From positions 124,001-188,000 of the forward strand of contig JAEUJQ010000035.1 in assembly GCA_016793095.1 (NCBI GenBank): a stretch of 64,000 nucleotides of DNA. The letters are read 5' to 3'. Both the position numbers and the translations under genes were made by a program. Below are positions 4,631 to 64,000 of this stretch, in pieces; the stretch's first letter is position 1, and each line of letters opens with the position of its first letter. Below the pieces are notes generated by a model. The model worked only from the letters and a program-made list of their open reading frames with translations, made no database searches and was not told the DNA's origin. This stretch comes from Myxococcaceae bacterium. GTDB lineage: Bacteria > Myxococcota > Myxococcia > Myxococcales > Myxococcaceae.

Positions 4631-6919
<2,289 letters not shown>

Positions 6920-8673: not shown

Positions 8674-11142
8674 TCAGGGCTTCAACGTCAGCTCGCCGTG
8701 CACGCCGCGCCGCACCTCGGCGACGTCGAACAGCATCGGCACCAGCTCGCCGCGTCTCCACGCCTCGTACTGATCGCCGTAGTGCGCCGAGCCCGGCCAG
8801 CCGCTCGCGCCAGTGTCGATGACCCACCAGCCGTGGGCCACGTCGGCGAGATCGACCACGCTGCGGTACACCGGCCCGGCGACCACCTTGAAGGGCGCCT
8901 TCTCGTTGCCGAAGTCGAAGTGCGTCTTCCAGACCGAGTCCATCTCCCCGCCAGCCTCCAGGCGCTCGAGGTTGACGAGCCCGTCGAGGACGGCCTTGCC
9001 GCCGAACGCGTGCATCGGCCGGTGCCAGTGCAGCCGACCCCAGCGCCAGCCGGCGGCCTCTGCGCCCTGCTGCTCCGCGAGCTCGTTCACGGCCCGCGCG
9101 AACGCGGCTCTCACCACCTCATCACGGGTCTCGACCCGCGAGGTGGTGCGGTCGTCCCACACGACGTGCTGCGCGTCTTCGAACCAGAGGTCAGCGGTGT
9201 TGGTCGAGTAGCGCTGGCCGAGGAAGAACTTCACGGCCGGCGCGGGCAGCTCGTCACTCACCGCCGTCACGACGGCGTGGTGGTAGGTGAGGAAGAAGAT
9301 GGCGGCCTCCGGCTGGTCGCCCTTCGCGTCGAAGTCCCACGCGGAGAGGCGGGCGGCCGCGGTGCGGGCAGCCCCGGTCCACCCCTCCCCCGTCCCCAGG
9401 GCCTGCCTCATGAAGGGCCACACCGTCTGGGCGCGCAGCGAGTGCGTGTCTGCCAGCATCGCGCGGAACGAGGCGAGCTCGTGCTTCGGCGTCGCCTTCG
9501 CGAGATCGACGATGCGCTGGTGGCGGAACGCGGGGGCCGAGTCCACCTGCAGGCGCGCGAAGTCGCTGGCGCCGGGCTCGGTCATCAGGTTGTTCGCGTG
9601 GGCCAACACGCCGTCGGGTGGATCGACCGCGTGCGGCAGCCGGTCCCCCGCCGCGAACTCCGTCCAGTCGTACCTCGAGGTCCACCCCGGCACCGGGAAC
9701 GTGCCGCGGTGGTTCGGCCTGGCGGGCACCTGCCCCGACGGGAAGAGCCCGATGTGGCCCTCCACGTCAGCCACGGTCCAGGTGTTCCAGGTCGACGGCA
9801 GCCGCGCCACGGCCGCGCCGAACGCCTCGACGCTCGTCGCCTGATCCATCGTGAGCAGCGCCTCCATCGCGGACTCGAGCCCGGTCACCCGCCAGCGGAT
9901 GGCGAGCAGCGGCGCGCCAGGGGGGAAGAGGTGTGGCAGCAGGTCGTTCATCAGCGGGCCGTTGCAGGTCGCGCGGAACCGCACCGGCCGCTCCATCAGC
10001 TCGTCACCATCGCGCACCCGCACCACCTCGTCTCGGGTGGTGAGGGCGCAGTCGCTGCCCTCGTGCTTCACGAAGCCCGGGCGCGAGGGATCCTCCTGCT
10101 CGACGACGAGATCGATCACGTCCGACATCGTCGACGTCATGCCCCACGCCACCTTCGCGTTGTGGCCCGAGAGCACCCACGGCACCCCCGGCACCGTCAC
10201 GCCGATGACGTCGAGGCCCGGCGCCGACAGGTGCTGCTGCACGAGGATGCCCGGCAGGAAGTGCGCGAGGTGCGGGTCATTCGCCACCATCGGCTTGCCT
10301 GACTTCGTGCGCGCGCCCGAGACGACCCAGGCGTTCGAGGCGCCCTCCACGGGCAGCACCGTGAGCCACGACGACGGCGGCGACGACGGCGCGGCTGGCA
10401 GCTTCACCGGGAAGAGGCTCGCGAGCTCTTCGGCGACCGCGGGGGGCAGGGCCTGAGGCGGCGTGGTGGCCGCGATGCTGCGACCGCCCCGCACCGGCTC
10501 GTTCGGGTAGAGCTTCTCCATGCGCTCGACGCCGAGGTGCATCGCGAAGAGGAACCGGGCGGCCTCCTGCTGGTAGTTGTGGGTCACGCTCCAGACGTTG
10601 AGCAGCCCCACCGCGAGCGTGTCGGTGGCGTTCCACGGCTCGGCCTGCAGGCGAAGCAGGCGGTACTCCACCGGCTCCCACCGGGCGCGGGCGGCGTTGA
10701 CGCCCTCGGCGAAGGCCTCGAGCAGCGCCTTCTGCTCGGCCGACAGCTTCCCGAAGTCGGCGGTGGCGCGACGCTCGATGTCCCAGCCGCGCATCGTCTT
10801 GTCGTACTCGAGGGTGGTGGACGAGACGAGCGGCTGCTCCCCGACCACCTCGGACACGCGCCCTCGCGCGAGGCGCCGCATCATGTCCATCTGGAAGAAG
10901 CGCGCGCGGCCCTGCACGAAGCCCGTCGCTCGCGCGAGGTCGAGCAGGTTCTTCGCCTGCACGTGTGGGACGCCCTGTGCGTCGAACGTCACCTGCACCG
11001 GCTCCCGAAGGCCCTCGAGCTGCAGCGACTCCTCTCGTGCGTCACGCGGGGCGTTGGGCGCGATGCGGTAGCCGACGAGCGCCGTGAGCGCACACCCCGA
11101 CGACAGCCCGGCGGCGACGAGGAGCAGAGCGGAGCGGAGCAT
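8674..11142 (-). CDS. Penicillin-acylase family (S45) Ntn-hydrolase lipoprotein
   Basis: 822 residues. It begins with a signal ending LSSGC, so it is likely a lipoprotein. The family layout is visible: a small subunit region with the VTFDAQGVPHVQAKN and FVQGRARFFQMDMMRRL motifs, a linker, then the processing site with the N-terminal nucleophile Ser269 in EGASNAWVVSG, followed by KPMVANDPHL and VPGVPWVLSGHN. Members are made as one chain, cleave themselves before the Ser, and hydrolyse amide bonds in beta-lactams, acyl-homoserine lactones or similar N-acyl compounds. It is the last gene of a three-gene unit: its start lies only 3 bp after the barrel gene. The substrate cannot be told from sequence. 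Confidence 0.85.
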   Translation of the reverse strand: MLRSALLLVAAGLSSGCALTALVGYRIAPNAPRDAREESLQLEGLREPVQVTFDAQGVPHVQAKNLLDLARATGFVQGRARFFQMDMMRRLARGRVSEVVGEQPLVSSTTLEYDKTMRGWDIERRATADFGKLSAEQKALLEAFAEGVNAARARWEPVEYRLLRLQAEPWNATDTLAVGLLNVWSVTHNYQQEAARFLFAMHLGVERMEKLYPNEPVRGGRSIAATTPPQALPPAVAEELASLFPVKLPAAPSSPPSSWLTVLPVEGASNAWVVSGARTKSGKPMVANDPHLAHFLPGILVQQHLSAPGLDVIGVTVPGVPWVLSGHNAKVAWGMTSTMSDVIDLVVEQEDPSRPGFVKHEGSDCALTTRDEVVRVRDGDELMERPVRFRATCNGPLMNDLLPHLFPPGAPLLAIRWRVTGLESAMEALLTMDQATSVEAFGAAVARLPSTWNTWTVADVEGHIGLFPSGQVPARPNHRGTFPVPGWTSRYDWTEFAAGDRLPHAVDPPDGVLAHANNLMTEPGASDFARLQVDSAPAFRHQRIVDLAKATPKHELASFRAMLADTHSLRAQTVWPFMRQALGTGEGWTGAARTAAARLSAWDFDAKGDQPEAAIFFLTYHHAVVTAVSDELPAPAVKFFLGQRYSTNTADLWFEDAQHVVWDDRTTSRVETRDEVVRAAFARAVNELAEQQGAEAAGWRWGRLHWHRPMHAFGGKAVLDGLVNLERLEAGGEMDSVWKTHFDFGNEKAPFKVVAGPVYRSVVDLADVAHGWWVIDTGASGWPGSAHYGDQYEAWRRGELVPMLFDVAEVRRGVHGELTLKP

Positions 11143-19222: not shown

Positions 19223-19978
19223 ATGCGACTCCCCGTGCTCTCGCTCCTCGCGCTCACCGCCTGCGGGCCGGTGAAGCCCTCGACCGACGGCGGCGCGGTC
19301 GATGACTCCTGCGGCCTCGACTGCGTCGCGCAGGCCCGCTACGGCCTCATCGCCAACCGCTGCTTCGAGTACTCGGTGAGCGAGTCGATGAAGAACGACC
19401 CGCCGAAGCTCGGCGCCCTCGTGAAGCCGGTCTTCACGCTCGAGGGCGGCGTCAAGGTGATGCCCGTCGAGTACCGCGAAGGCGGCCAGACGCTGATGAT
19501 CGACAACTTCGCCTTCGAGGGCGGCAACCTGAAGCTGCTGCGCCGCGAGTTTCCCCGGCAGGGCCGCTCGGTGACGTTCCGGAACGACGCCATGGCCATC
19601 ACCGGAGTGACCTGGCTGCTCACCGACGCCGCGCCCGGGCAGAACCAGACGACCAACACGCAGACCGACAGCGTCGATCAGCAGGGCACGCACACGGTCG
19701 AGGCGGCCACCTACCGCGTGACCATTCAGAACCCCACGGCTGCCCAGCTCAAGACGCCGCTGAAGGACTATGCCTCGGGGCTCCGGCTGCTCACCGTGCA
19801 GACGCCCGATCGCGGCTCGGATCCGATCCGCACCTTCGTACCCGACGTCGGCTTCATCACCATTACCAGTCCCTTCAACTACGCCGGCGGCAACCCGACG
19901 CCGGTCTTCCTGCAGCGCATTCGTGACATCGGCTCGCCGGACGCTGGCAGCGAGCCCTGCTCCCTGGGGGTCCCATGA
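19223..19978 (+). CDS. Lipoprotein, unknown function
   Basis: 251 residues with a lipobox (LLALTACG). The mature part has two cysteines close to the N-terminus (DDSCGLDCVAQARYG), one in NRCFEYS and one near the end (EPCSLGVP), so disulfides are likely. The rest is beta-rich. It overlaps the start of the LEA-type gene by 4 bp, so the two are probably co-translated. No family recognised. Confidence 0.65.
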   Translation: MRLPVLSLLALTACGPVKPSTDGGAVDDSCGLDCVAQARYGLIANRCFEYSVSESMKNDPPKLGALVKPVFTLEGGVKVMPVEYREGGQTLMIDNFAFEGGNLKLLRREFPRQGRSVTFRNDAMAITGVTWLLTDAAPGQNQTTNTQTDSVDQQGTHTVEAATYRVTIQNPTAAQLKTPLKDYASGLRLLTVQTPDRGSDPIRTFVPDVGFITITSPFNYAGGNPTPVFLQRIRDIGSPDAGSEPCSLGVP

Positions 19979-51763: not shown

Positions 51764-51933
51764 CGTCGTGCAGCCGCTGAGCCAACGAGGGAGGGCATCG
51801 GTCGTCCTTTCACGCAGAGGAACGTACGTGCCAGAGCCTGGCTGACAGGTCGGACGAGTCGGGTCACATCACGCCAGCGCCTCGGAACCGGAGCGGCTCC
51901 ACTCGACGCTCGACCCCGGGCCCACGAAAACCG

Positions 51934-51977
51934 AAGGCCCTGACCCGCTCCGGTTTCCCGAAACGAATCAGGGCCTT
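51934..51977. terminator. Hairpin next to the left attachment repeat
   Basis: A 10-bp perfect stem joins 51934-51943 with 51968-51977. It ends six bases before the attachment repeat. On the minus strand it is followed by TTTT, so it could stop transcripts leaving the island leftwards. A comparable hairpin stands at the same place next to the right repeat. Confidence 0.5.
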
Positions 51978-51983
51978 TCATCA

Positions 51984-52003
51984 GTCGGGGAGACAGGATT
52001 TGA
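51984..52003 (+). repeat. attL: 20-bp copy of the tRNA-Pro 3' end
   Basis: Reads gtcggggagacaggatttga and is identical to 60506-60525. Only this short end of the tRNA is duplicated; the rest of the sequence here has no tRNA likeness. Confidence 0.85.
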
Positions 52004-52132: not shown

Positions 52133-52156
52133 GTCGTGGAAAGCGTCGTGGAAACG
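52133..52156 (+). repeat. Left copy of a 24-bp terminal direct repeat
   Basis: Identical to 60401-60424 and in the same direction. It contains gtcgtggaaa twice. The right copy codes for the last residues of the integrase (EVVESVVET), so the left copy is either a remnant of another integrase end or a recombinase accessory site. Confidence 0.6.
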
Positions 52157-52197: not shown

Positions 52198-52455
52198 GTG
52201 ACCGCCGCAGAGGCGCTGAAGCATGTTCGAGGGTATGCGGCGGCTGGAAGGTACTTCGTGTCGCAGCATGCCCGGCAGCGGATGCAGGAGCGTGGCGTTC
52301 GAGAAAGTGACCTGCGGAATGCCCTGGTGAACGCACGTTCGTGTGCTCCCCAGAAGGACGACAAGTGGAAGGTCGAGGGGAGCGACCTCGATGGAGATGA
52401 CCTCACGGTGGTCGTGGTCATCGACGACGGCCTGTTGGTGGTGACCCTCTTCTAG
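52198..52455 (+). CDS. DUF4258-family toxin of a type II TA pair
   Basis: 85 residues from GTG. The DUF4258 pattern is clear: FVSQHARQRMQERGVRESDL, a basic middle (RSCAPQKDDKWKVEG), and the end LTVVVVIDDGLLVVTLF. Members have a small RelE/BrnT-like fold and are often paired with an MqsA-type antitoxin, as here 9 bp downstream. No ribosome site is visible; the promoter position suggests a leaderless or nearly leaderless message. The pair probably stabilises the island. Confidence 0.75.
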   Translation: MTAAEALKHVRGYAAAGRYFVSQHARQRMQERGVRESDLRNALVNARSCAPQKDDKWKVEGSDLDGDDLTVVVVIDDGLLVVTLF

Positions 52456-52464
52456 GAGTGAAGG

Positions 52465-52941
52465 ATGAAGTGCGAACGGTGCAAGACGGGGAAGCTGGAG
52501 AAGACGGTCGCTCCCGACTCGGTCGAAGTCGGGAAGCACGTGTTCACCGCCAAGCTGCCGGCGCTCAAGTGCCGGGAGTGCAGCGAGGTCTACTTCGACG
52601 GCCCTTCGCTGGAGCGCTTCGAACTCCGAGCCGCCGTCGAACTGGCCAGGGCTGGCGAGGCTTCCGGCGAGGTCATGCGGTTCATGCGAAAGGCCGCTGG
52701 CCTGCGGGCGCTGGAACTCGCCGAGCTCCTCTCTGTGACGCCGGAGACCGTGTCTCGCTGGGAGACTGGTAACCAGCCGATGGAGCATCGTGCCATGGCC
52801 GTGATGGGCGCTCTGGTGGTCGAGCGCTTTGAGGGAAGAACGTCGACCCTCGACAACCTGAAGGCGCTGAGGCGACCCAGGAAGCTCGGGCGGAAGGTCG
52901 AGCTGTCCCTCGCCGACCTGAGTGCCTCTCAGGTGCCCTGA
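52465..52941 (+). CDS. MqsA/YgiT-type antitoxin, zinc-finger and HTH
   Basis: 158 residues. The N-terminal zinc finger uses CERC (3-6) and CREC (37-40). From about residue 70 there is an XRE-type helix-turn-helix (LRALELAELLSVTPETVSRWETGNQPM). It neutralises the toxin and represses the pair through the upstream inverted repeat, by analogy with MqsA. A C-terminal extension (KLGRKVELSLADLSASQVP) is a little longer than in E. coli MqsA. GGAG lies before the start. Confidence 0.8.
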   Translation: MKCERCKTGKLEKTVAPDSVEVGKHVFTAKLPALKCRECSEVYFDGPSLERFELRAAVELARAGEASGEVMRFMRKAAGLRALELAELLSVTPETVSRWETGNQPMEHRAMAVMGALVVERFEGRTSTLDNLKALRRPRKLGRKVELSLADLSASQVP

Positions 52942-53777: not shown

Positions 53778-54143
53778 ATGACGGCAGCGACCATGGTCAC
53801 CACCCGCAATTCTCCAGCACCGATGGAAGTGGTGGCCGTGAACGTCCGGCGTCTTCGGCTGGCCGCCAAGCTGACCCAGGCGCAACTTGCCGAACGTGCG
53901 GGGCTGGACCGCACGTTCGTGTCGCTCTGCGAGCGCTGCCACAGAAACGTGACGGTCCAGAGTCTCTTCGCTCTTGCGTCAGGGCTTGGGTGTGACCCCC
54001 AGCAACTCGTGGCCGCTCCTAGTGCTGGCGGTGCGGTGCATAGGCCAGAGGACGCCCGAGCGAATGCTCAGGCACGAGTTCAACGCCTCGGGGCGTCACG
54101 TTCCTCGCCCGGCTCTCGCCAACGCAATGGTGTCCGGCGATGA
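53778..54143 (+). CDS. XRE-family regulator (controller-like)
   Basis: 121 residues; the helix-turn-helix is at about residues 20-75 (NVRRLRLAAKLTQAQLAERA, DRTFVSLCER, VQSLFALASGLGCDPQQLV). This form resembles the C (controller) proteins of restriction-modification systems. ATGs at 53778, 53793 and 53823 are all in frame. The C-terminal 45 residues are Arg/Ala/Ser-rich and unlike the usual short family members, perhaps due to read-through of an altered end. It overlaps the methyltransferase start by 4 bp, tying it to the operon. Confidence 0.75.
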   Translation: MTAATMVTTRNSPAPMEVVAVNVRRLRLAAKLTQAQLAERAGLDRTFVSLCERCHRNVTVQSLFALASGLGCDPQQLVAAPSAGGAVHRPEDARANAQARVQRLGASRSSPGSRQRNGVRR

Positions 54144-55429
54144 AGAGCTACGGGCCATATGTGAATAAGCTGGAGTCGCTGGCGAGCGGACTCTTCGACG
54201 GGTCCACCACGCTCTCGAAGCGACAGTTCAGCCGCACGCTCAACGGAGAGGCGAGCAAGGAATTGCGTGCCTTGGTGCCGCTGGAGGATCGGCGGGACTC
54301 AGGAGCATTCTTCACACCGTCGCCAATGGGTCGGAAGCTCATCAAGCACCTCAGCCCTTGGCACGGTGCACCAGTCTTCTTTGACCCCGCATGCGGCGCA
54401 GGAGACCTTCTTGTCGCTGTGGCTGACCAATTGCCCATTGCGGCCAGTCTTCAAGACACCCTGGAACTTTGGGGACCGCTTCTGTGCGGCTGGGACATTC
54501 ACGAGGAGTTCGTCCGAGCAGCACGAGCGAGAGTGATCATCGCTGCCGCTTGTCGGTGCCCCAAGGTAACCCGGACCCGGTCGAAGCCGGCCGCTCTCCT
54601 CCCGAACATCAGGAAGCGAAATGCGCTCACGAGTCTCAGGTTCGGGCCCGAGTACTCCCACATGCTCACCAACCCCCCATTCACCGCTCGCCTCGCTCCG
54701 AAGGGCTGCACCTGGGCGCAAGGCAGCGTCTCAGCAGCTGCGGTTTTCGTAGCCGAGGCCCTGCAGCACGGGCCGAAGGGAGCCCAGGTCCTTGCTGTAC
54801 TCCCCGACGTCCTAAGGACAGGACCTAGATACTCTGCTTGGCGAGAGCACGTTCAGGCCACCGCATCAGTGCGCTCGGTTGATGCGATCGGACGATTCGA
54901 CGATTGGACCGACATTGACGTCTTTCACCTCGGCCTTGAACTCGGTGGCAAATCGTCAGGGCCTCAGGCTGTCTGGGTCCAGGGTCACACCGAGGCGAGG
55001 CTCGACGACGTCGTCGATGTCTCGGTGGGCGCCGTTGTTCCTCATCGGCATCCCAAGCGAGGGGCTGTTCAGCGATACCTGACGACGGACGAAATGCCTC
55101 GGTGGGCTTTGGTGTCCGCATCCAAGTTGCCGACCCGGCGCTTCGCCGGTCGGCTCGTCAACCCACCGTTTGTGGCGGTTCGGCGGATGTCGAGGCCAGA
55201 GGACTCTCCACGGGCGGTGGCGACTATCGTCCGTGGCCGAGAGCCCGTGGCGGTCGAGAACCACGTGATAGTTCTGGTGCCGCACGAACAGACGCTCAAG
55301 GCGTGCGAGCAAGTCGTTGCCCGACTGCGCCTTCCCGGTACTACCGACTGGCTGCTTCGCACCAACCGATGCCGTCATCTGACGTCATCCGCACTCGCAT
55401 CGATCCCTTGGAGCGAGAATGGCAACTAG
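54140..55429 (+). CDS. N6-adenine-type DNA methyltransferase
   Basis: 429 residues. Motif I is FFDPACGAGDLLVA (about residues 79-92) and motif IV is TNPPFTAR (about 176), so it is an N6-adenine methyltransferase of the gamma/Type I-like order. The N-terminus has RDSGAFFTPSPMGRKLIKHL, the typical cofactor-side motif X. A target-recognition part of about 200 residues follows. No endonuclease domain is fused. It overlaps the XRE gene (4 bp) and the GHKL gene (11 bp). Confidence 0.85.
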   Translation: MKSYGPYVNKLESLASGLFDGSTTLSKRQFSRTLNGEASKELRALVPLEDRRDSGAFFTPSPMGRKLIKHLSPWHGAPVFFDPACGAGDLLVAVADQLPIAASLQDTLELWGPLLCGWDIHEEFVRAARARVIIAAACRCPKVTRTRSKPAALLPNIRKRNALTSLRFGPEYSHMLTNPPFTARLAPKGCTWAQGSVSAAAVFVAEALQHGPKGAQVLAVLPDVLRTGPRYSAWREHVQATASVRSVDAIGRFDDWTDIDVFHLGLELGGKSSGPQAVWVQGHTEARLDDVVDVSVGAVVPHRHPKRGAVQRYLTTDEMPRWALVSASKLPTRRFAGRLVNPPFVAVRRMSRPEDSPRAVATIVRGREPVAVENHVIVLVPHEQTLKACEQVVARLRLPGTTDWLLRTNRCRHLTSSALASIPWSENGN

Positions 55430-57461
55430 CGCCCTCCGCTTCTCTCCTGAAGTCCTTCGTCGACTTGGTGAGGAGTTGGTCCCGAACCCTGACCAGGGCA
55501 TTCTCGAACTGGCCAAGAACTCCTACGACGCTGACGCCAGCTCGTGCGAGGTGAGCCTTGCCAATGCCGATGTCGCAGGTGGGACCATCGTAATCTCCGA
55601 CGACGGGATCGGCATGACTCCCGACGACATCACGGAAAGCTGGCTCGTCCTCGGCCACTCGTCCAAGAGCGAAAAGGAGCTGACCGACAAGCAGCGGGTT
55701 CCGGTCGGCGACAAGGGCCTTGGCCGGCTTGCTGCCATGCGGCTTGGGAGTGAGGTGACGCTTCGAACTCGCCCCAGTTCGAGGCCCGGCAAGGAGTACT
55801 CGGTCGAAATCAACTGGGCCCGCTACGACTCGGCGGCGACCGTCGAGAGCGTGAAGCTCTCGATTGATGAGCGAAAGACCAAGGAGAAGAACGGCACCAC
55901 CATCGAGGTCAGGAACCTCACTTCGGCACTAGGCCGCAAGGAGGTGCAACGACTGGCCCGATCGCTACTGCTGCTATCCGACCCGTTCAACGACCAGTTC
56001 GGCTTCAGGCCGTACTTGCGATCCCCTCAGTTTGCGGACCTCGAAGAGTTGGTCAAAGGGGCGTACTTCTCCGAGGCAGAGTATCACCTGGTCGCTTCCC
56101 TCGACGATTTGGGGTCGCCCAAGGCGAAGGTGTTGGACTGGAGCGGCAAGGTCCTCTGGGAGGCATCACCGAAGGACTTCGGGGAATCCGGCTACTCCAC
56201 GCCAGCGTGCAAGTTCGACCTTTGGACATTCGTCCTCCTTGCAAAGGAGTTCACGACCAAGCAGGTCACGATGGGCGAGGTCCAAAAGTGGCTGGAGGTC
56301 GTTGGTGGCGTCCACCTCTACCATGGCGGCCTTCGGGTCCATCCGTATGGCGACCCCGGTCACGATTGGCTCGACATGAATCTGTCTCGGGCACGAAACC
56401 CCGAGTTTCGACCATCGACCAACAACTCGATCGGGAAGGTCGATATTGCGGACCCGACCAACCGCCTGCGCCAGAAGACGGACAGGTCAGGGTTCGTTGA
56501 GACCGATGAATTCCGAGAGCTGAAGCGTTTCCTCAAAGACGCTTTGGACTGGATGGCCAAGAAGAGGCTGGCTGCACGGGAGCAGCGTCGAAGCCTGCGC
56601 CGAACCTCACCACCCAAGCAGGTCCGGGCCGCACAGACAGCGCTCACCAAGGCAATCAAGAAGGTCCCGTCGACTGTCCGGTCCGACATCGAAAAGGCGG
56701 TGGGGACGCTGGAAGCGTTACGAATCAAGGAGTCAGAGGCGCTGCGAGAGGACCTGGAGCTGTACCGAACTCTCAGCACGGTCGGCACCACCGTTGCGGT
56801 TTTCGCTCATGAGTCAGCGAAGCCGGTGACGCAGATTGAGAACATGTCCAACGAGCTCGGGCGTCGCCTCCGCAAGGAGCTACCCAAGAACGAGGGCCTC
56901 TTCTCTAAGCCTCTTGAACTCATTCAGCGAGCAGCCAAGGCACTTCGTAGCTTCGCCAAGTTGCCAATCGATCTCCTTCGGCGAGAAAAGCGCCGCTCGG
57001 GTCAGGTGGATGTTCACGTGGCGGTCGAGGGAATTGCCGCACTCTTTGAGCCCTTCCTTGCCGACTCGAAGATTGACCTCCAGAAGAGCTTGGCCCCAGA
57101 ACGCCCGCTGATTCAGGGAAGTGTGGCCTCGCTCGAAGCGGTGCTCGCCAATCTCGTGACCAACAGCATCAATGCGTTCCACTCCGAGCGCTCGGTCACA
57201 AGCAAGCGCCGAGTTGAGATAGCCACGCTCTGTTCGGGAGACACGGTCACGCTGGTCGTTCGAGACAACGGTCCGGGCATCGAGGGGATTGACCTTGAGG
57301 ACATCTGGCTCCCTGGTCAATCGACCACGCCAGGCGGAACTGGCCTCGGGCTTACGATCGTGCGTGACTCCGTCGCCGACTTGGGTGGACGGGTTTCCGC
57401 TGTTGCGCACGGCCCGCTGGGTGGCGCAGAGGTAACGGTCGTTCTTCCGCTACTGCGATAA
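55419..57461 (+). CDS. Double-GHKL ATPase with histidine-kinase-like half
   Basis: 680 residues with two GHKL ATP sites. First module (about 10-250), Hsp90/MORC-like: N box with E30 and N34 in ELAKNSYDADA, DDGIGM, and GDKGLGRLAAMRLG. Then a helical part with VFAHESAKPVTQIENMS (H464), which resembles the phosphorylated His region of histidine kinases. Second module (about 545-680): LANLVTNSINAF, VRDNGPGIEG and GGTGLGLTIV, the kinase-type ATP site. No membrane segment. It may sense DNA or a ligand by the first module and phosphorylate the receiver protein encoded 10 bp downstream. Overlaps the methyltransferase gene by 11 bp. Confidence 0.8.
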   Translation: MATSALRFSPEVLRRLGEELVPNPDQGILELAKNSYDADASSCEVSLANADVAGGTIVISDDGIGMTPDDITESWLVLGHSSKSEKELTDKQRVPVGDKGLGRLAAMRLGSEVTLRTRPSSRPGKEYSVEINWARYDSAATVESVKLSIDERKTKEKNGTTIEVRNLTSALGRKEVQRLARSLLLLSDPFNDQFGFRPYLRSPQFADLEELVKGAYFSEAEYHLVASLDDLGSPKAKVLDWSGKVLWEASPKDFGESGYSTPACKFDLWTFVLLAKEFTTKQVTMGEVQKWLEVVGGVHLYHGGLRVHPYGDPGHDWLDMNLSRARNPEFRPSTNNSIGKVDIADPTNRLRQKTDRSGFVETDEFRELKRFLKDALDWMAKKRLAAREQRRSLRRTSPPKQVRAAQTALTKAIKKVPSTVRSDIEKAVGTLEALRIKESEALREDLELYRTLSTVGTTVAVFAHESAKPVTQIENMSNELGRRLRKELPKNEGLFSKPLELIQRAAKALRSFAKLPIDLLRREKRRSGQVDVHVAVEGIAALFEPFLADSKIDLQKSLAPERPLIQGSVASLEAVLANLVTNSINAFHSERSVTSKRRVEIATLCSGDTVTLVVRDNGPGIEGIDLEDIWLPGQSTTPGGTGLGLTIVRDSVADLGGRVSAVAHGPLGGAEVTVVLPLLR

Positions 57462-57471
57462 AGGACGCTGC

Positions 57472-58143
57472 ATGAGGGTCTCAATCATCGACGACGATCC
57501 GAGCACGGCGGAGGGAACCGCTGTGCTTATTGAGGGAGCGGGACACGAGCCTGTCTTCATTCACAAACTGCCACGCAAGGTCGCTGAGGCTGCCACGCTC
57601 GTCGTCGGCCAAAGCGACGCCCTGGTGTGCGATCACCGCCTGCAGCCGAGGAATCTTGCGAAGTACTACGGTGCCGAACTGGTGGCGTCAGTCATGCAGT
57701 TGGGCAAGCCCGGTGTGCTCCTGAGTCAGTTCATCGGCCCAGACAACGACGTCTCAATTCGGCGATGGCGCAAGAGCCTTCCCGTCGTGCTGGCCCGTGA
57801 CGCTCTGGACGTGGACCGAATTGCAGCGGGCTTGGATTTCTGCGCCGCCGAGATTGCCGGCAACATCACCCCTGAGAGGCGCGCGGTCAGGCAGCTCTTC
57901 CGTGTCGAGGATACCGGGGAGGAGAGCAGGCAGAAGGTGGCCGACGTTGTCGTCCCTGGCTGGAGGGCAACGAAGGCAGTGCGAATCCCGCTAGACCTGT
58001 TCCCCAAGGACCTTAGGAAGAAGGTCAAGCGAGGGGCTCGGTTCTTCGCTCTCATCAACGTCGGCGCACAGTCGGACGAGGAACTGTTCTTCGAGAAGTT
58101 CGAACTCGCAGCAGCGCCGGATGACACCGATGGCCTCAAGTGA
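57472..58143 (+). CDS. Receiver-domain protein of the island operon
   Basis: 223 residues. Residues 1-120 are a response-regulator receiver: acidic D7-D9 (IIDDDPSTAEG), phosphoacceptor D54 (ALVCDHRL), S85 (VLLSQF). The conserved Lys seems to be Arg (VVLARDAL, R109). The last 100 residues are not a known DNA-binding output (RAVRQLFRVEDTGEES, LFPKDLRKKVKRGARFFALIN). The start has AAGGA eight bases upstream. Its end overlaps the MBL gene. Likely takes phosphate from the GHKL protein or is regulated by it; this is inference. Confidence 0.7.
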   Translation: MRVSIIDDDPSTAEGTAVLIEGAGHEPVFIHKLPRKVAEAATLVVGQSDALVCDHRLQPRNLAKYYGAELVASVMQLGKPGVLLSQFIGPDNDVSIRRWRKSLPVVLARDALDVDRIAAGLDFCAAEIAGNITPERRAVRQLFRVEDTGEESRQKVADVVVPGWRATKAVRIPLDLFPKDLRKKVKRGARFFALINVGAQSDEELFFEKFELAAAPDDTDGLK

Positions 58144-59143
58144 CCTTCTGATTCTGGACGTTGGCCACGGGAACTGCGCCTTGGTTTCGGACGGGGCTGA
58201 TGCTGCAGTCGTCGATGCCCCTCAAGGCGCAACCCTTGTTGAGGCACTCGAACATCTTGGGACCAAGCGGATCAAGGCCGTGTACGTGTCTCACGCCGAT
58301 GCAGATCATGTGGGTGGCGTCATCGGCCTTCTGTCGAATCCTGACTTCTCGGTCGATGCGGTCTACGTGAATCCGGACTCGCACAAGGACAGCGACACTT
58401 GGCACGACTTTCGGTTCGCAGTGAAGGACGCACAACGGCGGAATGCCGCCCTGAAGGTCCATTCGGAACTCACGACCACAACGGTTTGTCCCAAGGTCTC
58501 CGGCCGGCACGAGATGCGTGTGCTGTGGCCAACGCCGGACATCGCCCTAGCCGGCTCTGGCGGCAAGGACCTCAAGGAGCGCCCGCTAACGTCCAACAGC
58601 ACCTCGGCGGTCATGCTCGTGACCAGCGAGGGGAAGAACTTGGCGGTGCTGTGCGGCGACATCGACGGAGTAGCGCTGGCCAACATTGAAGAAGACAAGA
58701 TCGAGATGAAGGCCCGTGTGCTGGTCTTCCCTCACCACGGAGGTTTGCCCCGCAGCGCCGCCCCCTTTGCGTTCGCCAAGGGCCTCTGTGCCCTAGTTTC
58801 CCCAGATGCCGTGGTCTTCTCGATGAGCCGCCGGGGGCACCGGAATCCGCTACCCGAGATCGTAGCCGGCGTGCGGGCGGCTGCGCCAAAGGCCTATGTA
58901 ATCTGCACCCAACTGTCGACGAACTGCTCAAGCAGCGACCCCAAGACAGCTCCGACCCACCTGAGTGCCGCTCCGAGTCAAGGCGCACGCCGACAACACG
59001 CATGTGGCGGGACACTCAGCCTCGACATGAGCTCATCGTTCGCTGTTCGAGCGCCAGATACCGTCAAGCACGGCTCGTTTGTTCAGAGCAATGCTCCGAC
59101 AGCTCTCTGCCTCGGCAAGGGACCCAAGGTACGTCCGAACTAG
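58121..59143 (+). CDS. ComEC/Rec2-like MBL-fold hydrolase
   Basis: 340 residues (ATG 58121; ATG 58130 also possible). The MBL core has VSHADADHVGGV (H58, D60, D62, H63), a GDIDG segment as the bridging Asp, and VLVFPHHGGLPRS as a ComEC-type HHGG motif. The N-terminal LLILDVGHGNCALV is typical for this branch. It lacks membrane helices and a DNA-uptake domain, so it is a stand-alone nuclease or phosphodiesterase. The C-terminal 60 residues carry two Cys and look disordered. It starts 14-23 bp inside the receiver gene and is the last operon gene; candidate effector. Confidence 0.75.
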   Translation: MTPMASSDLLILDVGHGNCALVSDGADAAVVDAPQGATLVEALEHLGTKRIKAVYVSHADADHVGGVIGLLSNPDFSVDAVYVNPDSHKDSDTWHDFRFAVKDAQRRNAALKVHSELTTTTVCPKVSGRHEMRVLWPTPDIALAGSGGKDLKERPLTSNSTSAVMLVTSEGKNLAVLCGDIDGVALANIEEDKIEMKARVLVFPHHGGLPRSAAPFAFAKGLCALVSPDAVVFSMSRRGHRNPLPEIVAGVRAAAPKAYVICTQLSTNCSSSDPKTAPTHLSAAPSQGARRQHACGGTLSLDMSSSFAVRAPDTVKHGSFVQSNAPTALCLGKGPKVRPN

Positions 59144-59173: not shown

Positions 59174-59970
59174 TCACTCCGACTCAAACCCGTGCGAAGT
59201 GAACTTCAGAGTGTTGGCGTTCTCGGTCACTCGGCGAACGACGCCTTCCTTCACGCCGGACTCGACGTGGACCCGAATCTCCAGTGTCACCTCGGTCTTC
59301 GCCCCAGGAATCGTCGACAGGTGCTGGATGACTTCCTCGGCCACTCGGCCTGCGTCCCGACCGATTCGCATCGGGTCGAGCTTCACCGAACCGATGAACA
59401 GGTTGGGCGGCGGCTTGGTTGTCGGAGCTGCAGGGCCTGAGGCCTTCCCGGGCGATGTCGAGCCTGCCTTCGAGATGGCCTGAGTTCCCAGTGCCGGCGT
59501 TCCGGGTGCACCAGCGGCCTTCTCAATCTCCTGCTGTCGCTTGGCCACCGCCGGCTTCACCACCAGCGTCGCCTTCTCGATGACCGGCGCCGTCCCAGCT
59601 CCGAACTTCAAGCCGACGTAGCGTTTCTTGGTGTCGTCCCAGTTCGCAGCGATGGCGAACGTCTCGTCGACCAGAATGTTGCTGGCACCGTCGATGACGG
59701 CTCGGTGCAGCGCCTCTCGGTTCTTCAGCCTCGGCAGGTACAGGTAGCGGGTGAACCACTCGGCGAGCTGGCCCACCGACACGTGGTCCTTGTCGGTCCA
59801 GAGGTAGCGGTCGAGCTCCATGCGGAGCCGCACGCCTCCCATCTCGGGCATGAGCAGCTCCTCGCTGTTCAGCTTCGCCCCGGTCCTCTTCGCCAGGCCG
59901 TCGTTGCCACTGACCTTGAGCTCCTCCCAGCGCACCTCGGCGGTGGCGTTGGGCTGCGTCGGCACCAGAG
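59174..59970 (-). pseudogene. C-terminal fragment of a DUF499-type ATPase
   Basis: The minus-strand frame (formally from 60064) carries from about 59970 to 59174 the C-terminal part of DUF499 proteins: RWEELKVSGNDGLAKR, FTRYLYLPRLKNREALH, FAIAANWDDTKKRYVGL, and the end LKFTSHGFESE with GSVKLDPMRIGRDAGRVAEE before it. Complete DUF499 proteins are about 1000 residues and have an ATPase domain; here only some 265 residues remain. The N-terminal end is lost where the integrase fragment begins. These proteins occur in defence-linked gene sets with a methyltransferase. Not functional alone. Confidence 0.7.
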
Positions 59971-59988
59971 CGTGAATCCACGAGGCTC

Positions 59989-60442
59989 CGATTCGAAGGG
60001 TCGGCGAGACCGGAAGGTGCGGCTCACCGCCCGGCTCAAGACGGCCCTGAAGGCGAACCAGCATCTGCGTGGTGACCGGGTCCTCTGGCGTGACGACGTT
60101 GCCCAGGACGGGCGGAAGCTGACCGTCACCCAGGTGTTGTTGGCCAAGTGGATGTCACGGGCTCAGCGCCGAGCTGGGCTGAAGGTGACCGGCGGCATCC
60201 ACATCTTGCGCCACACGTTCTGCAGCCGGCTGGCAATGGCGGGCGCAACGCCCGTCGCCATCAGCACCATGGCCGGCCACCAGAGCCTGTCGACCACGCA
60301 GCGGTACCTGCATCTCTCTCCGGCGGCGATGGACCAGGCCATCGCCCTGCTCGACGCCGGAGCCGACCGGGCCGCCTCGCCCGAGCCGCAGTCGAACGAA
60401 GTCGTGGAAAGCGTCGTGGAAACGGGTGTTGGAACCGGCTGA
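59989..60442 (+). pseudogene. C-terminal half of a tyrosine integrase
   Basis: The frame from about 59989 (SKGRRDRKVRLTARLKTALK) to the stop at 60442 matches the C-terminal half of phage-type tyrosine recombinases: HILRHTFCSRLAMAG (His-x-x-Arg), AGHQSLSTTQRYLHLS (His and the nucleophilic Tyr). The first catalytic Arg and the arm- and core-binding N-terminus are absent. The open frame begins upstream at 59705 but that part is antisense to the DUF499 fragment. It is the integrase of the island, broken. Confidence 0.8.
60401..60424 (+). repeat. Right copy of the 24-bp terminal repeat
   Basis: Identical to 52133-52156, same direction. Here it is the end of the integrase frame (EVVESVVET) and lies 81 bases before the attachment repeat. 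Confidence 0.6.
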
Positions 60443-60456
60443 CGCCGGAGACAACA

Positions 60457-60496
60457 AGGCCCGGAGTTCCCTGATTTTCCAAGGAACTCCGGGCCT
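60457..60496. terminator. Strong hairpin downstream of the integrase fragment
   Basis: A perfect 14-bp stem joins 60457-60470 and 60483-60496 with a 12-base loop. It is a likely terminator between the integrase and the tRNA. It ends nine bases before the right attachment repeat. Confidence 0.6.
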
Positions 60497-60505
60497 CATC
60501 ACCGT

Positions 60506-60525
60506 GTCGGGGAGACAGGATTTGA
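60506..60525 (+). repeat. attR: 20-bp repeat in the tRNA 3' end
   Basis: The same 20 bases as 51984-52003. It covers the 3' acceptor strand and part of the T-arm of the tRNA gene plus one base outside. Confidence 0.85.
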
Positions 60526-60580
60526 ACCTGCGACCCCTTGGTCCCGAACCAAGTGCTCTACCAGGCTGAGCCACTCCCCG
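60507..60580 (-). tRNA. tRNA-Pro (anticodon CGG)
   Basis: 74-base cloverleaf on the minus strand: acceptor CGGGGAG/CTCCCCG with A73, D-arm GCTC-AGCCTGGTA-GAGC, anticodon stem CTTGG/CCAAG with loop TTCGGGA (CGG), T-arm GCAGG-TTCAAAT-CCTGT. CCA is not encoded. The 3' end is the integration site of the island; the gene is complete. Confidence 0.95.
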
Positions 60581-60669
60581 AACGACTCCGACTGAGTGCT
60601 GCAACGACGCCGGCCCTTGTGCCCGCCTGACGCCACGGTGTCAAGACTCCGCGCGCACCGCCGCCCGGA

Positions 60670-63600
60670 TCAGTTGCACGTCAACCGGCTCGCGTAGCTG
60701 CCCACCGGCGTCGCCCCGCTGGCCCCGTAGTACAGCCGCGAGAACGGCGCCCACGCCGCCAGCCCCACCTTGTTCCCCGGCCGGCAGTCCGGCTCCGCCC
60801 CGCACGCCCCGCTCGTCACCGGCACCTCCACCGCGCTCCCGAACGGCGTCCGCGACCCGGTCAAGTCGGTGAACCGCGTCATCACCTGCCGCTTGAACCC
60901 CGACGCGTCCACCACGAACCGGTTCGCCACGAACAACAGCCCCGTCGCGGTCGGCGTCACCCGCGGCCGCGTGATGGAGTCGACCCCGTTCTCGCGCGCG
61001 TAGTCGAGCCACGCGTACCCCCACGACCAGTACGGCGTGCCCGAGATGACCCGCGTGCCGAACGTGAGGTCCGCCGTCGGTGGCGTGTCTCCCGGGTCCT
61101 TCGTCACGTACGCCACCACCCACGGGCTCCGGCTCGCCGGCGAGGGGTAGAACGTCACGTCGGGCTCCGCCATCAGCCGCGGCGACGACACCGTGTACAC
61201 GACCTCCTCCGCCATCCACTTCCCGGTGCCGTCCTCGTTCACCTCGAAGAAGTTCAGGCTCTGCCCGGTCGTCAGGTAGCTGATGCCCACCTTCCTCAGC
61301 GCGCTCGAGCACGTCTGCACGCCCACCCAGTCGCTCACGTCCGAGTCCGCGCCCACCCCCGCCGGCATCGTCGCGCTCGGAGAGATGGTGCACGCGCCTC
61401 CACAGAGGTTCGTGTTCGTGATGCTGAACGCCGTCGCGCCCCCGTCCCCGTCGATGCGGTAGCGCGCCATGCGCACGCCGTTGTTCGCCGCCCCGCCCGA
61501 CTGCCGCCACACCACCACCACCTGCCGCCCGCTCACCCGCACCACCCGCAGGGAGTCGATCACCGCCCCGCTGCCCGCGTTGAACTGCGAGTACCGCAAG
61601 GCCCGCGACGCGCCCGTCGCCGCGTCCACGTAGAAGAGGTCGATCTCGGGGCTCGACGCCCACACGCCCGCCACCACGAACCCGTCGCCCGCCTGCGCCA
61701 TCGCCACGTCGAGGTACGTCAGCGAGGTGAACTGCGTCGGCGTGCCCGACGGCACACCCGCCGGGTCGAGCCGCTGGAACACCACCCCGCTCTGCCCCAC
61801 GCCCATCAGCAGCCCACCGCCCGCGAGCGCGTCGGTGCCCGACGTCTGCAGCCCGCCCTGACACCCGCCCGCCGAGTAGAAGTACGGCTGCACCTCGAGG
61901 TCCTGCCAGGCCGTGGTGCCCACGTTCGCCGTGGCCACCAGGAAGGGCTCGTCCACCACTCCGTCGCAGTCGTTGTCGAGGCCGTCACAGGCGCTCGGCG
62001 TCGGCGCGCCCGCGTCGGCGTTGCACAGCGTGCCCGTCTGCGCCGCGTTGCACACGATGGAGCCCGACCGCAGGCACACCCCCACCCCCGCCGAGCACGA
62101 GGTGCCCACCCCGGGGAACGGCTCGTCGACGCCGCCGGTGCAGTCATCGTCCAGACCGTTGCACCGCTCGGGAGACGGCTCCACGTTGCGCACGCACGAC
62201 AGGCCACCCGACACGCACGTCTGGGTGCCCGCGTTGCACACGCCCGCCTGCCCCGTGAGGCACGCCGCCCCGCCACCCGGGTTCCCCTCGTCCACCGCGC
62301 CGCTGCAGTTGTCGTCCACGTTGTTACAGAGCTCGGCCACGCCCGGCCTCACCGCCGCGCTGCCGTCGTTGCAGTCGAGGTTGTTCGTCACCCGCCCGCT
62401 CTGCACCGCGCACGACACCACCGCCTGCCCCGTCGCGTGGCCGTAGCCGTCCGAATCGCCGTCCACCCACCAGTTCTGCGTCGGCAGCCCCTCGTCGGTG
62501 AGCCCGTCGCAGTCGTCGTCGATGACGTTGCACGTCTCGGTCGCGCCAGGGCGAATGGCCGCCACCGCGTCGTTGCAGTCCTGGTCGTTCGTCACGCGCC
62601 CGGGCACCGGCTGACAGCTCGACTGCCCCGCCGACATTCGCGCGCCATAGCCGTCGACGTCCGCGTCCACGTAGTACGTGAGGAAGGTGAGGCCCTCGTC
62701 CGTGCTGGAGTTGCAGTTGTCGTCGATGCCGTTGCACACCTCGACCGCGGTCGGCTTCACCGCCGCGTTGAGATCGTTGCAGTCCGACGCGTTCGTCACC
62801 CACCCGCTGATGGGGGCGCACGAGTTCTGCGGCGACGAGCCCGCGCGGCCGAAGCCGTCACCGTCGCCATCGAGCCAGTAGTTCTGCGCCATCGCGCCGT
62901 TGTCGACCAGCATGTCGCAGTTGTCGTCGAGCCCGTTGCACACCTCGACCGCCCCTGGACGAATGGAGGCGTTCAGATCGTTGCAGTCGTCATTCGACAG
63001 GACGTGGCCTGGCGGCGCGTTGCACCGGTTCACCGCCATCGCGCCCAGCCTGCCGCGCCCGTCACCGTCCCCGTCGGGGTACCAGGCCTGCGTCGCGAGG
63101 CCCTCGTCCACCAGCATGTCGCAGTCGTCGTCCACCTGGTTGCACGTCTCGGTCGCGCCGGGTCGAATCGCCGCGTTGCCGTCGTTGCAGTCGGTCGCGT
63201 TCGTCACGCGCCCCGTCACCGGCTCGCACGCGCTCATCGGGGTGGAGCCCGCCTGCCCGGCGCCGTCACCGTCGCCATCGACGTAGTAGCTCGAGAAGGT
63301 GAGCCCGTCGTCTGGCGTCCCGTCACAGTCGTCGTCGGCGCCGTTGCAGCGCTCGGGCGCGCCGGGCTTCACCGTCGCGTCACCGTCGTTGCAGTCGCTC
63401 GCGTTCGTCACCCGGCCGGGCACGCTCTGGCAGGCGTTGAGCGCCGCGCCCGTGCCGAAGCCGTCGCCGTCCATGTCGGCGTAGTACGCGGTGAACGTGA
63501 GGCCGTCGTCGGGCGTGCCGTCGCAGTCGTCGTCGGCGCCGTTGCAGCGCTCGGGGGCGCCGGGCTTCACCGTCGGGTCGGCGTCGTTGCAGTCGGTGCC

Positions 63601-64000
63601 CACGGTCACACGCCCGGGCTGCACCGCGCACGACGACACGGCGGTGCCCATGGCTCCGAAGCCGTCGCCGTCACCGTCCACGTACGAGGTGATGAGGGTG
63701 AGGTTCTCGTCCACCTGCCCGTCGCAGTTGTCATCCACCTGGTTGCAGGTCTCGGGAGCGCCCGGCTTCACCGTCGGGCTCGCGTCGTTGCAGTCGGCCT
63801 GGTTCGTCACCTTTCCGGCGATGGGCGAACAGCTCGACTCAGGCGCGCTGCCGGTCGCGCCGAAGCCGTCGCCGTCCTGGTCCACGTAGTAGCTCTGGAA
63901 GGTGATGCCGTTGTCCACCTGCCCGTCGCAGTTGTCATCGACGCGGTTGCACAGCTCGCTCGCGCCCGGCTTCACCGTCGGGTCCCCGTCGTTGCAGTCG
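60670..64000 (-). CDS. MopE-repeat surface protein (5' end beyond window)
   Basis: Over 1100 residues seen; the N-terminus lies beyond the right edge. The visible first part is nine repeats of about 67 residues with the motif KPGAPExCNxxDDxCDGxxDE...YxDxDGDGFG...DCND, known as the metal-binding MopE repeat. Two related Cys-rich units follow (GVCNAGTQTCVSGGLSC, GVCLRSGSIVCNA), then a C-terminal domain of about 420 residues that looks like a beta-propeller (VAMAQAGDGFVVAGVWASSPE, RQVVVVWRQSGGAANNG). Acidic DxDGDG loops suggest calcium binding. Expected to be exported, but the signal is not in view. Confidence 0.85.
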   Translation of the reverse strand, partial: DCNDGDPTVKPGASELCNRVDDNCDGQVDNGITFQSYYVDQDGDGFGATGSAPESSCSPIAGKVTNQADCNDASPTVKPGAPETCNQVDDNCDGQVDENLTLITSYVDGDGDGFGAMGTAVSSCAVQPGRVTVGTDCNDADPTVKPGAPERCNGADDDCDGTPDDGLTFTAYYADMDGDGFGTGAALNACQSVPGRVTNASDCNDGDATVKPGAPERCNGADDDCDGTPDDGLTFSSYYVDGDGDGAGQAGSTPMSACEPVTGRVTNATDCNDGNAAIRPGATETCNQVDDDCDMLVDEGLATQAWYPDGDGDGRGRLGAMAVNRCNAPPGHVLSNDDCNDLNASIRPGAVEVCNGLDDNCDMLVDNGAMAQNYWLDGDGDGFGRAGSSPQNSCAPISGWVTNASDCNDLNAAVKPTAVEVCNGIDDNCNSSTDEGLTFLTYYVDADVDGYGARMSAGQSSCQPVPGRVTNDQDCNDAVAAIRPGATETCNVIDDDCDGLTDEGLPTQNWWVDGDSDGYGHATGQAVVSCAVQSGRVTNNLDCNDGSAAVRPGVAELCNNVDDNCSGAVDEGNPGGGAACLTGQAGVCNAGTQTCVSGGLSCVRNVEPSPERCNGLDDDCTGGVDEPFPGVGTSCSAGVGVCLRSGSIVCNAAQTGTLCNADAGAPTPSACDGLDNDCDGVVDEPFLVATANVGTTAWQDLEVQPYFYSAGGCQGGLQTSGTDALAGGGLLMGVGQSGVVFQRLDPAGVPSGTPTQFTSLTYLDVAMAQAGDGFVVAGVWASSPEIDLFYVDAATGASRALRYSQFNAGSGAVIDSLRVVRVSGRQVVVVWRQSGGAANNGVRMARYRIDGDGGATAFSITNTNLCGGACTISPSATMPAGVGADSDVSDWVGVQTCSSALRKVGISYLTTGQSLNFFEVNEDGTGKWMAEEVVYTVSSPRLMAEPDVTFYPSPASRSPWVVAYVTKDPGDTPPTADLTFGTRVISGTPYWSWGYAWLDYARENGVDSITRPRVTPTATGLLFVANRFVVDASGFKRQVMTRFTDLTGSRTPFGSAVEVPVTSGACGAEPDCRPGNKVGLAAWAPFSRLYYGASGATPVGSYASRLTCN
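62300..64000 (-). repeat. Tandem ~200-bp coding repeats of the MopE-type protein
   Basis: About eight to nine head-to-tail copies of a unit of roughly 200 bases. Neighbouring copies are nearly the same at the DNA level over stretches, for instance the two GAPERC units around 63,300-63,570. Such repeats change number easily by recombination. Confidence 0.75.

Follow-up and report, generated by a model that had tools for sequence, protein, structure and literature searches.

Introduction

Hma (helicase, methyltransferase, and ATPase; PMC8565338) has been placed among the BREX-related systems as a type-1, DUF499-centred member (PMC12839542). Genomic islands at tRNA genes are in turn defined by Islander through the tRNA, its displaced fragment, and an integrase (PMC4383910). 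Remnants of both kinds meet in the 64,000-nucleotide window analysed here (bases 124001-188000 of a contig of at least 188 kb), taken from the 8.8-Mb genome of a Myxococcaceae bacterium, in which a truncated hmaC gene abuts a truncated tyrosine integrase gene beside a tRNA-Pro. In bacteria, deletions arising via microhomology-mediated (alternative) end joining leave a seamless join at a short common sequence. The join in the window is likewise seamless at a short shared sequence, the mechanism being read from the scar alone. At a probability of roughly 80%, we propose that one deletion at the hexamer CGAAGG, inside one tRNA-Pro island, joined the truncated hmaC and integrase genes.

Set against Hma as presented in the two papers above (PMC8565338, PMC12839542), the remnant is 93% identical at the amino acid level (90% in DNA) to the full HmaC of an hmaA-hmaB-hmaC operon in genome G088; it differs in that the island keeps the last quarter of hmaC, without the ATPase core, the methyltransferase, or the helicase. 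Membership in Hma takes HmaA, HmaB, and HmaC together, and of these the island retains only HmaC residues ~824-1098. Compared with tRNA islands as outlined for Islander (PMC4383910), the window shares the intact tRNA with a direct-orientation displaced 3' fragment, the integrase gene beside the tRNA, and an empty site in relatives; Islander islands have an intact integrase, whereas that of the window has lost ~236 codons from its 5' end, making this a decayed member.

Results

A tRNA-Pro island with both ends preserved

The features of the locus are as follows (window coordinates; a dot denotes no strand).

51926-51983 (.): left outer flank, a chromosomal stretch that in empty-site relatives adjoins the 3' end of tRNA-Pro
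51984-52003 (.): left att, the displaced 20-bp tRNA-Pro 3' end, an exact direct repeat with 60506-60525
52133-52156 (.): left arm-type repeats (TGGAAAG / TGGAAAC), putative in function, within a 24-mer identical at both island ends
52198-52941 (+): toxin-antitoxin-like pair, DUF4258 protein (PF14076) and MqsA-family antitoxin (TIGR03830)
53778-59143 (+): cargo run, comprising HTH, N6-methyltransferase-like, GHKL ATPase, unassigned 223-aa, and MBL-fold proteins
59174-59999 (-): 3' part of hmaC (DUF499 AAA+ ATPase), residues ~824-1098, 5' part missing (PADLOC HmaC; G088 identity)
59994-59999 (.): junction microhomology CGAAGG, found in the relatives L088 (hmaC) and L078 (integrase)
59994-60442 (+): tyrosine integrase gene, 3' part, lacking the 5' part and with it the GLRxGE stretch (Pfam; 7-relative alignment)
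60401-60424 (.): right arm-type repeats, putative in function, inside the integrase gene end
60506-60525 (.): right att, within the intact tRNA-Pro gene, an exact direct repeat with 51984-52003
60506-60580 (-): tRNA-Pro (CGG), the island attachment site (ARAGORN)

Repeat to repeat, the island spans 8522 bp, with 62.9% G+C versus 69.9% for the window. Its empty site is present in the same genus: in G132, G134, and G136, the match to 51926-51983 (~85-89% DNA identity in L111, L109, and L110, respectively; by eye, the stretch contains a terminator-like inverted repeat) runs straight into the tRNA-Pro, beyond which these genomes match 60488-64000 at ~80-81%. This comparison covered G131, G132, G134, and G136 out of the six same-genus genomes (G131-G136); further to the left, G136 also shows weak similarity to an integrase (35-44% over 38-60 residues). 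Directly beyond the tRNA, 60670-64000 encodes a long minus-strand protein in which many repeats of ~66 residues (DCNDGD...CNxxDDNCDGxVDEG) can be recognized by eye.

An exact 24-mer containing two TGGAAA repeats lies at 52133-52156 and again at 60401-60424. In the integrase-family loci L077, L085, and L086, pairs of TGGAGAC/CGGAGAC are found 152 and 163 bp from the left att, as compared to 153 and 165 bp in the window; near the right att, two TGGAGAC copies are present in L085 and L086 and one in L077. The 24-mer repeats are candidate arm-type integrase sites. That the identical 24-mer occupies both ends, in a variant unlike that of L077, L085, and L086, assigns these ends to a single type of element; with both ends present and of one type, the damage is therefore internal.

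Toward the left end, the antitoxin scores 63.3 bits against NCBIfam TIGR03830 (cut-off 61.8), next to the DUF4258 protein (Pfam PF14076). The antitoxin end (52399-52904) has 88% DNA identity to L077 15173-15678 (G094), a position just outside an att copy; the two att copies of G094, considered as a tandem array, proved to be the two ends of one ~4.9-kb island. Across the 145 order genomes, a single further relative of the GHKL protein was found at E 1e-40 (27% identity), and none of the MBL-fold protein at E 1e-20. The cargo run at 53778-59143 is possibly an undescribed defence operon.

Two genes lacking their 5' ends

Residues 28-294 of the minus-strand open reading frame at 59174-60064 match PADLOC HmaC positions 666-940 of 941 (E 2.7e-46), i.e., the last quarter of the ATPase, with the loss measured on relatives at 2471 nt (~823 of 1100 codons). 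By name, the closest relatives are Myxococcales, Deltaproteobacteria, and Myxococcota records. This frame gave no Pfam match. The 1100-aa HmaC of G088 contains HEPN_Swt1 and DUF499 domains, the DUF499 match covering residues 303-930, and the part surviving in the window lies mostly outside it. The original prediction's label of "DUF499 fragment" was thus right in substance, as the full G088 protein carries the domain, even though the remnant has no Pfam match.

The upstream side of hmaC, which is the side missing in the window, is where hmaB usually sits: it was found there, on the same strand though not always adjacent, in 18 of 24 distinct hmaC loci. Five of the other six reach a contig end at most 1.3 kb upstream of, or inside, hmaC, and the sixth (L135) has no hmaB in the ~8 kb upstream. 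Elsewhere in the window genome, no match to hmaB was obtained (in a search run without a positive control), nor any to a second hmaC.

Some 10 kb away from the Hma operon of G088 is a gene for a large serine recombinase, the end of which adjoins a displaced tRNA-like 3' fragment (L098 15990-17741); in that genome, Hma may travel with a different recombinase. The tRNA-like fragment was considered as the same att and rejected, for it reads as the end of another tRNA, with a CAT anticodon-like triplet by eye and no gene called by ARAGORN.

The plus-strand frame ending at 60442 matches Pfam Phage_integrase positions 60-169 of 172 and is hence the C-terminal part of a tyrosine integrase, which relatives indicate to have lost 709-712 nt (~236 codons of roughly 370-395). 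Its HxxR, GH, and Tyr regions are kept. The GLRxGE stretch, present in 7/7 aligned relatives, is gone; a catalytically complete tyrosine integrase carries all catalytic motifs, and this protein does not. The window genome encodes no second close integrase, the next best being 37% identical. Lacking the N-terminal half and the first part of the catalytic domain, this integrase would therefore leave the island unable to excise by itself. That the island was "fixed in place", as had been claimed, is likely on these grounds; both att sites and the arm-like repeats remain.

A seamless join at six shared bases

Three hmaC relatives (L088, the same contig as L005; L006; and L007) follow the window as far as 59998/59999; past this point they continue as hmaC, mutually similar in sequence that is absent from the window, which diverges. 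From the other side, integrase relatives L077, L078, and L079 align from 59994; upstream of this they continue as integrase, again mutually similar and again missing from the window. With both sets aligning into 59994-59999, the two ends overlap by 6 bases in a seamless join with no extra bases. Two 5'-truncated genes had been predicted to meet within ~20 bases of each other; this is real, and sharper than claimed.

The overlap, CGAAGG, is common to the L088 hmaC and the L078 integrase, in agreement with the suggestion that microhomology be sought at the junction. The letters of the ancestral integrase at the join are taken from its closest relative, L078, with which all 6 bases are shared; 5 are shared with L077 and L079 (CGAAGA), and fewer than 5 with the more distant L086 and L094 (CCAAGG). 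When breakpoint pairs were drawn at random (L088 hmaC against each of the three integrase genes, 400,000 draws each), at least 6 shared bases occurred in 0.24-0.25% of draws (frequency 0.0024-0.0025) and at least 5 in ~0.8% (0.0078-0.0082).

Distribution of the two genes and of the fusion

Relatives of the hmaC fragment, the window genome included, occur in 8/145 genomes of the order (E 1e-3) and 12/195 of the phylum (E 1e-10). Were the same fusion order found in many genomes, it would not be a deletion scar; this was checked, and the 11 other phylum genomes all hold full-length frames (943-1150 aa), such that the fusion is seen in the window genome only and is absent from the other genomes in which hmaC can be read. 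In G086, of the same order, a weak, short match (E 4.4e-5; last 54 residues only) lies in a 175-aa frame, 280 bases from a contig start, and does not allow a judgement.

At E 1e-3, the integrase query matched 145/145 order genomes, reflecting the ubiquity of related recombinases; within the order, the top integrase matches of the 7 other genomes with hmaC ranged from E 6.7e-10 to 1.6e-6, and in the five hmaC genomes outside the order, integrases were sought in the stretch around hmaC. None of the hmaC loci retrieved from genomes holds both genes intact, and the two parents were not seen in the expected order on one molecule among the genomes and loci examined. The sole fetched hmaC locus with an integrase match is L015 (Rhodococcus), where the integrase is distant (~25-32%) and on the same strand as hmaC.

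A search of genome contigs with the hmaC fragment returned 15 loci. Plasmids yielded 40 records for the hmaC fragment and 376 for the integrase, with a further 116 integrase records from phages, all below 60% identity; viral contigs gave no match to the hmaC fragment and one 37% partial match to the integrase. The junction (59900-60100) had no match among plasmids. Titles and abstract openings in the literature on microhomology with truncated island integrases, and on tRNA-Pro islands in Myxococcus, held nothing on such a case.

Age and origin of the fragments

Against G088, the hmaC fragment has a dN of 0.041 and a dS of 0.355 (dN/dS 0.116); polarization with two outgroups assigns 4 of its amino acid changes to the window branch and 6 to that of G088, leaving 9 ambiguous. 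For the integrase fragment, dN/dS is 0.14 versus L078, 0.21 versus L077, and 0.30 versus L079, compared to 0.22 for the two pairs measured among the relatives themselves; overall, no excess stands out clearly, yet the value versus L079 counts against a single recent deletion. As neither fragment is clearly decayed, the deletion appears recent relative to the G088 split, or else the fragments would be under constraint. In DNA, the hmaC fragment shares 90% identity with the hmaC of a different genus, versus 78-81% for flanking DNA on the far side of the tRNA within the genus, suggesting that hmaC arrived by transfer.

Discussion

A probable single deletion within one island

The most probable history of the locus would begin with an integrative island entering the 3' end of tRNA-Pro(CGG), with its integrase beside the tRNA and, divergent from that integrase, an Hma gene or operon (type-1 DUF499, BREX-related). 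Illegitimate joining at the 6-bp CGAAGG would later have deleted everything from hmaC codon ~824 to integrase codon ~237, depriving the integrase of the N-terminal half and of the initial part of the catalytic domain. From then on the island would have been unable to excise by itself, even with both att sites and its arm-like repeats still in place. The orientations of the two genes are those expected from a divergent pair, consistent with the predicted arrangement in which the missing parts once lay between them. The window genome encodes a Ku homologue (E 5.3e-48), and end joining is therefore possible. The loss would amount to at least ~3.2 kb (2471 nt of hmaC plus 709-712 nt of integrase), which fits the "few kilobases" originally envisaged; with the usual hmaA-hmaB-hmaC order it exceeds them, reaching ~9.8 kb (9042 + 709 bases) had the operon been complete, as it is in G088.

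The original prediction of a single deletion in one island is thus supported. A relative with both full genes in divergent orientation was sought and not found, and we therefore infer, rather than observe, deletion within one element; the one island, the one event, the end-joining route, and the loss of mobility all have this standing. Further observations count against this account: (i) the closest hmaC relative, in G088, has a large serine recombinase nearby; (ii) L078 alone accounts for all six shared bases; and (iii) the integrase remnant of G131, described below, is cut ~20 bp from the window's cut and joined to something else, a coincidence that a single deletion leaves uncovered.

The main rival is a deletion across two tandem islands at the same tRNA, with hmaC contributed by the left and the integrase end by the right, in which case an internal att and perhaps the first integrase would have been lost as well. 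Tandem islands of this integrase family are known from G091 and G098 only, and the want of any single island with both genes points the same way; one element is nonetheless what the identical left and right 24-mers would lead one to expect, albeit sibling islands of one type would match too, and we consider the tandem origin unlikely. Two separate events, whereby the integrase first lost its 5' end (as in G131, G097, G016, and G067) and the hmaC fragment was joined later, would draw on the recurrence of such losses in this family; as a seamless microhomology join between fragments without clear decay needs one event only, this sequence of steps is very improbable. A single deletion within one island remains our preferred account.

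Slighter still is the chance that the join is an assembly chimera. It occurs in one genome only, but the island around it has the right att sites and flanks and lies on a contig of at least 188 kb, and assemblers would not merge sequences over an overlap as short as six bases. We lend equally scant credence to a functional fusion, in which the C-terminal part of HmaC, as a 296-aa open reading frame starting antisense to the integrase, would still be made and be useful: its frame is without stops and its dN/dS versus G088 is low, but a recent loss gives a low dN/dS equally, the arrangement is seen in one genome only, and the predicted structure of the remnant (mean pLDDT 60.8) is too poor to use and decides nothing.

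The event is clear but ordinary island decay, with no new mechanism. As a snapshot of a defence island losing mobility it is well resolved, with the empty site, the att sites, the arm-like repeats, relatives of both parental genes, and the six bases shared at the join all readable; it also adds a case in which a defence system and the island's means of leaving were probably lost together in one deletion.

Recurrent integrase truncation and tandem islands at tRNA-Pro

Thirteen members of the integrase family were informative (the window, L077-L081, L084-L087, and L092-L094, but not L083, which a contig end interrupts). Eight of these span the gene from at or near its start, L087 with an internal stop; the window and 4/12 relatives (G131, G097, G016, and G067) have lost the 5' end, a proportion that is not a rate because the family was sampled from the best matches to the C-terminal fragment. 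All five keep the tRNA-proximal 3' end and break at different points. By DNA alignment, in relatives' codons, the cuts fall at ~237 in the window, a few codons further in G131, at 270 in G097, at ~204 with further damage in G016, and at ~149 in G067. What replaced the 5' end was inspected in G131, which has no hmaC match there, and, by eye, in G097. A bias whereby 5' loss is favoured, not merely tolerated, at the tRNA-Pro site in independent lineages is conceivable but doubtful; if true, islands, some of them with defence cargo, would become domesticated and unable to excise.

Tandem arrangements of the family take two forms. In G091 (L078), an att copy follows the integrase end at 9982, and the tRNA-Pro itself lies ~9.8 kb further, at 19778; in G098 (L085), a second right-end sequence is found directly left of the left att at 5907.

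Within the genus of the window, the corresponding tRNA-Pro of G131 (L081, L082) is also occupied by this element, there in the form of a decayed remnant. An ancestral deletion shared with the window is unlikely, there being no hmaC match beside the G131 remnant and no clear decay in the window hmaC. In the remnant, the integrase 5' end is lost ~20 bp from the position of the window junction, the frame is broken, the arm repeats are missing, and a fragment of the antitoxin persists.
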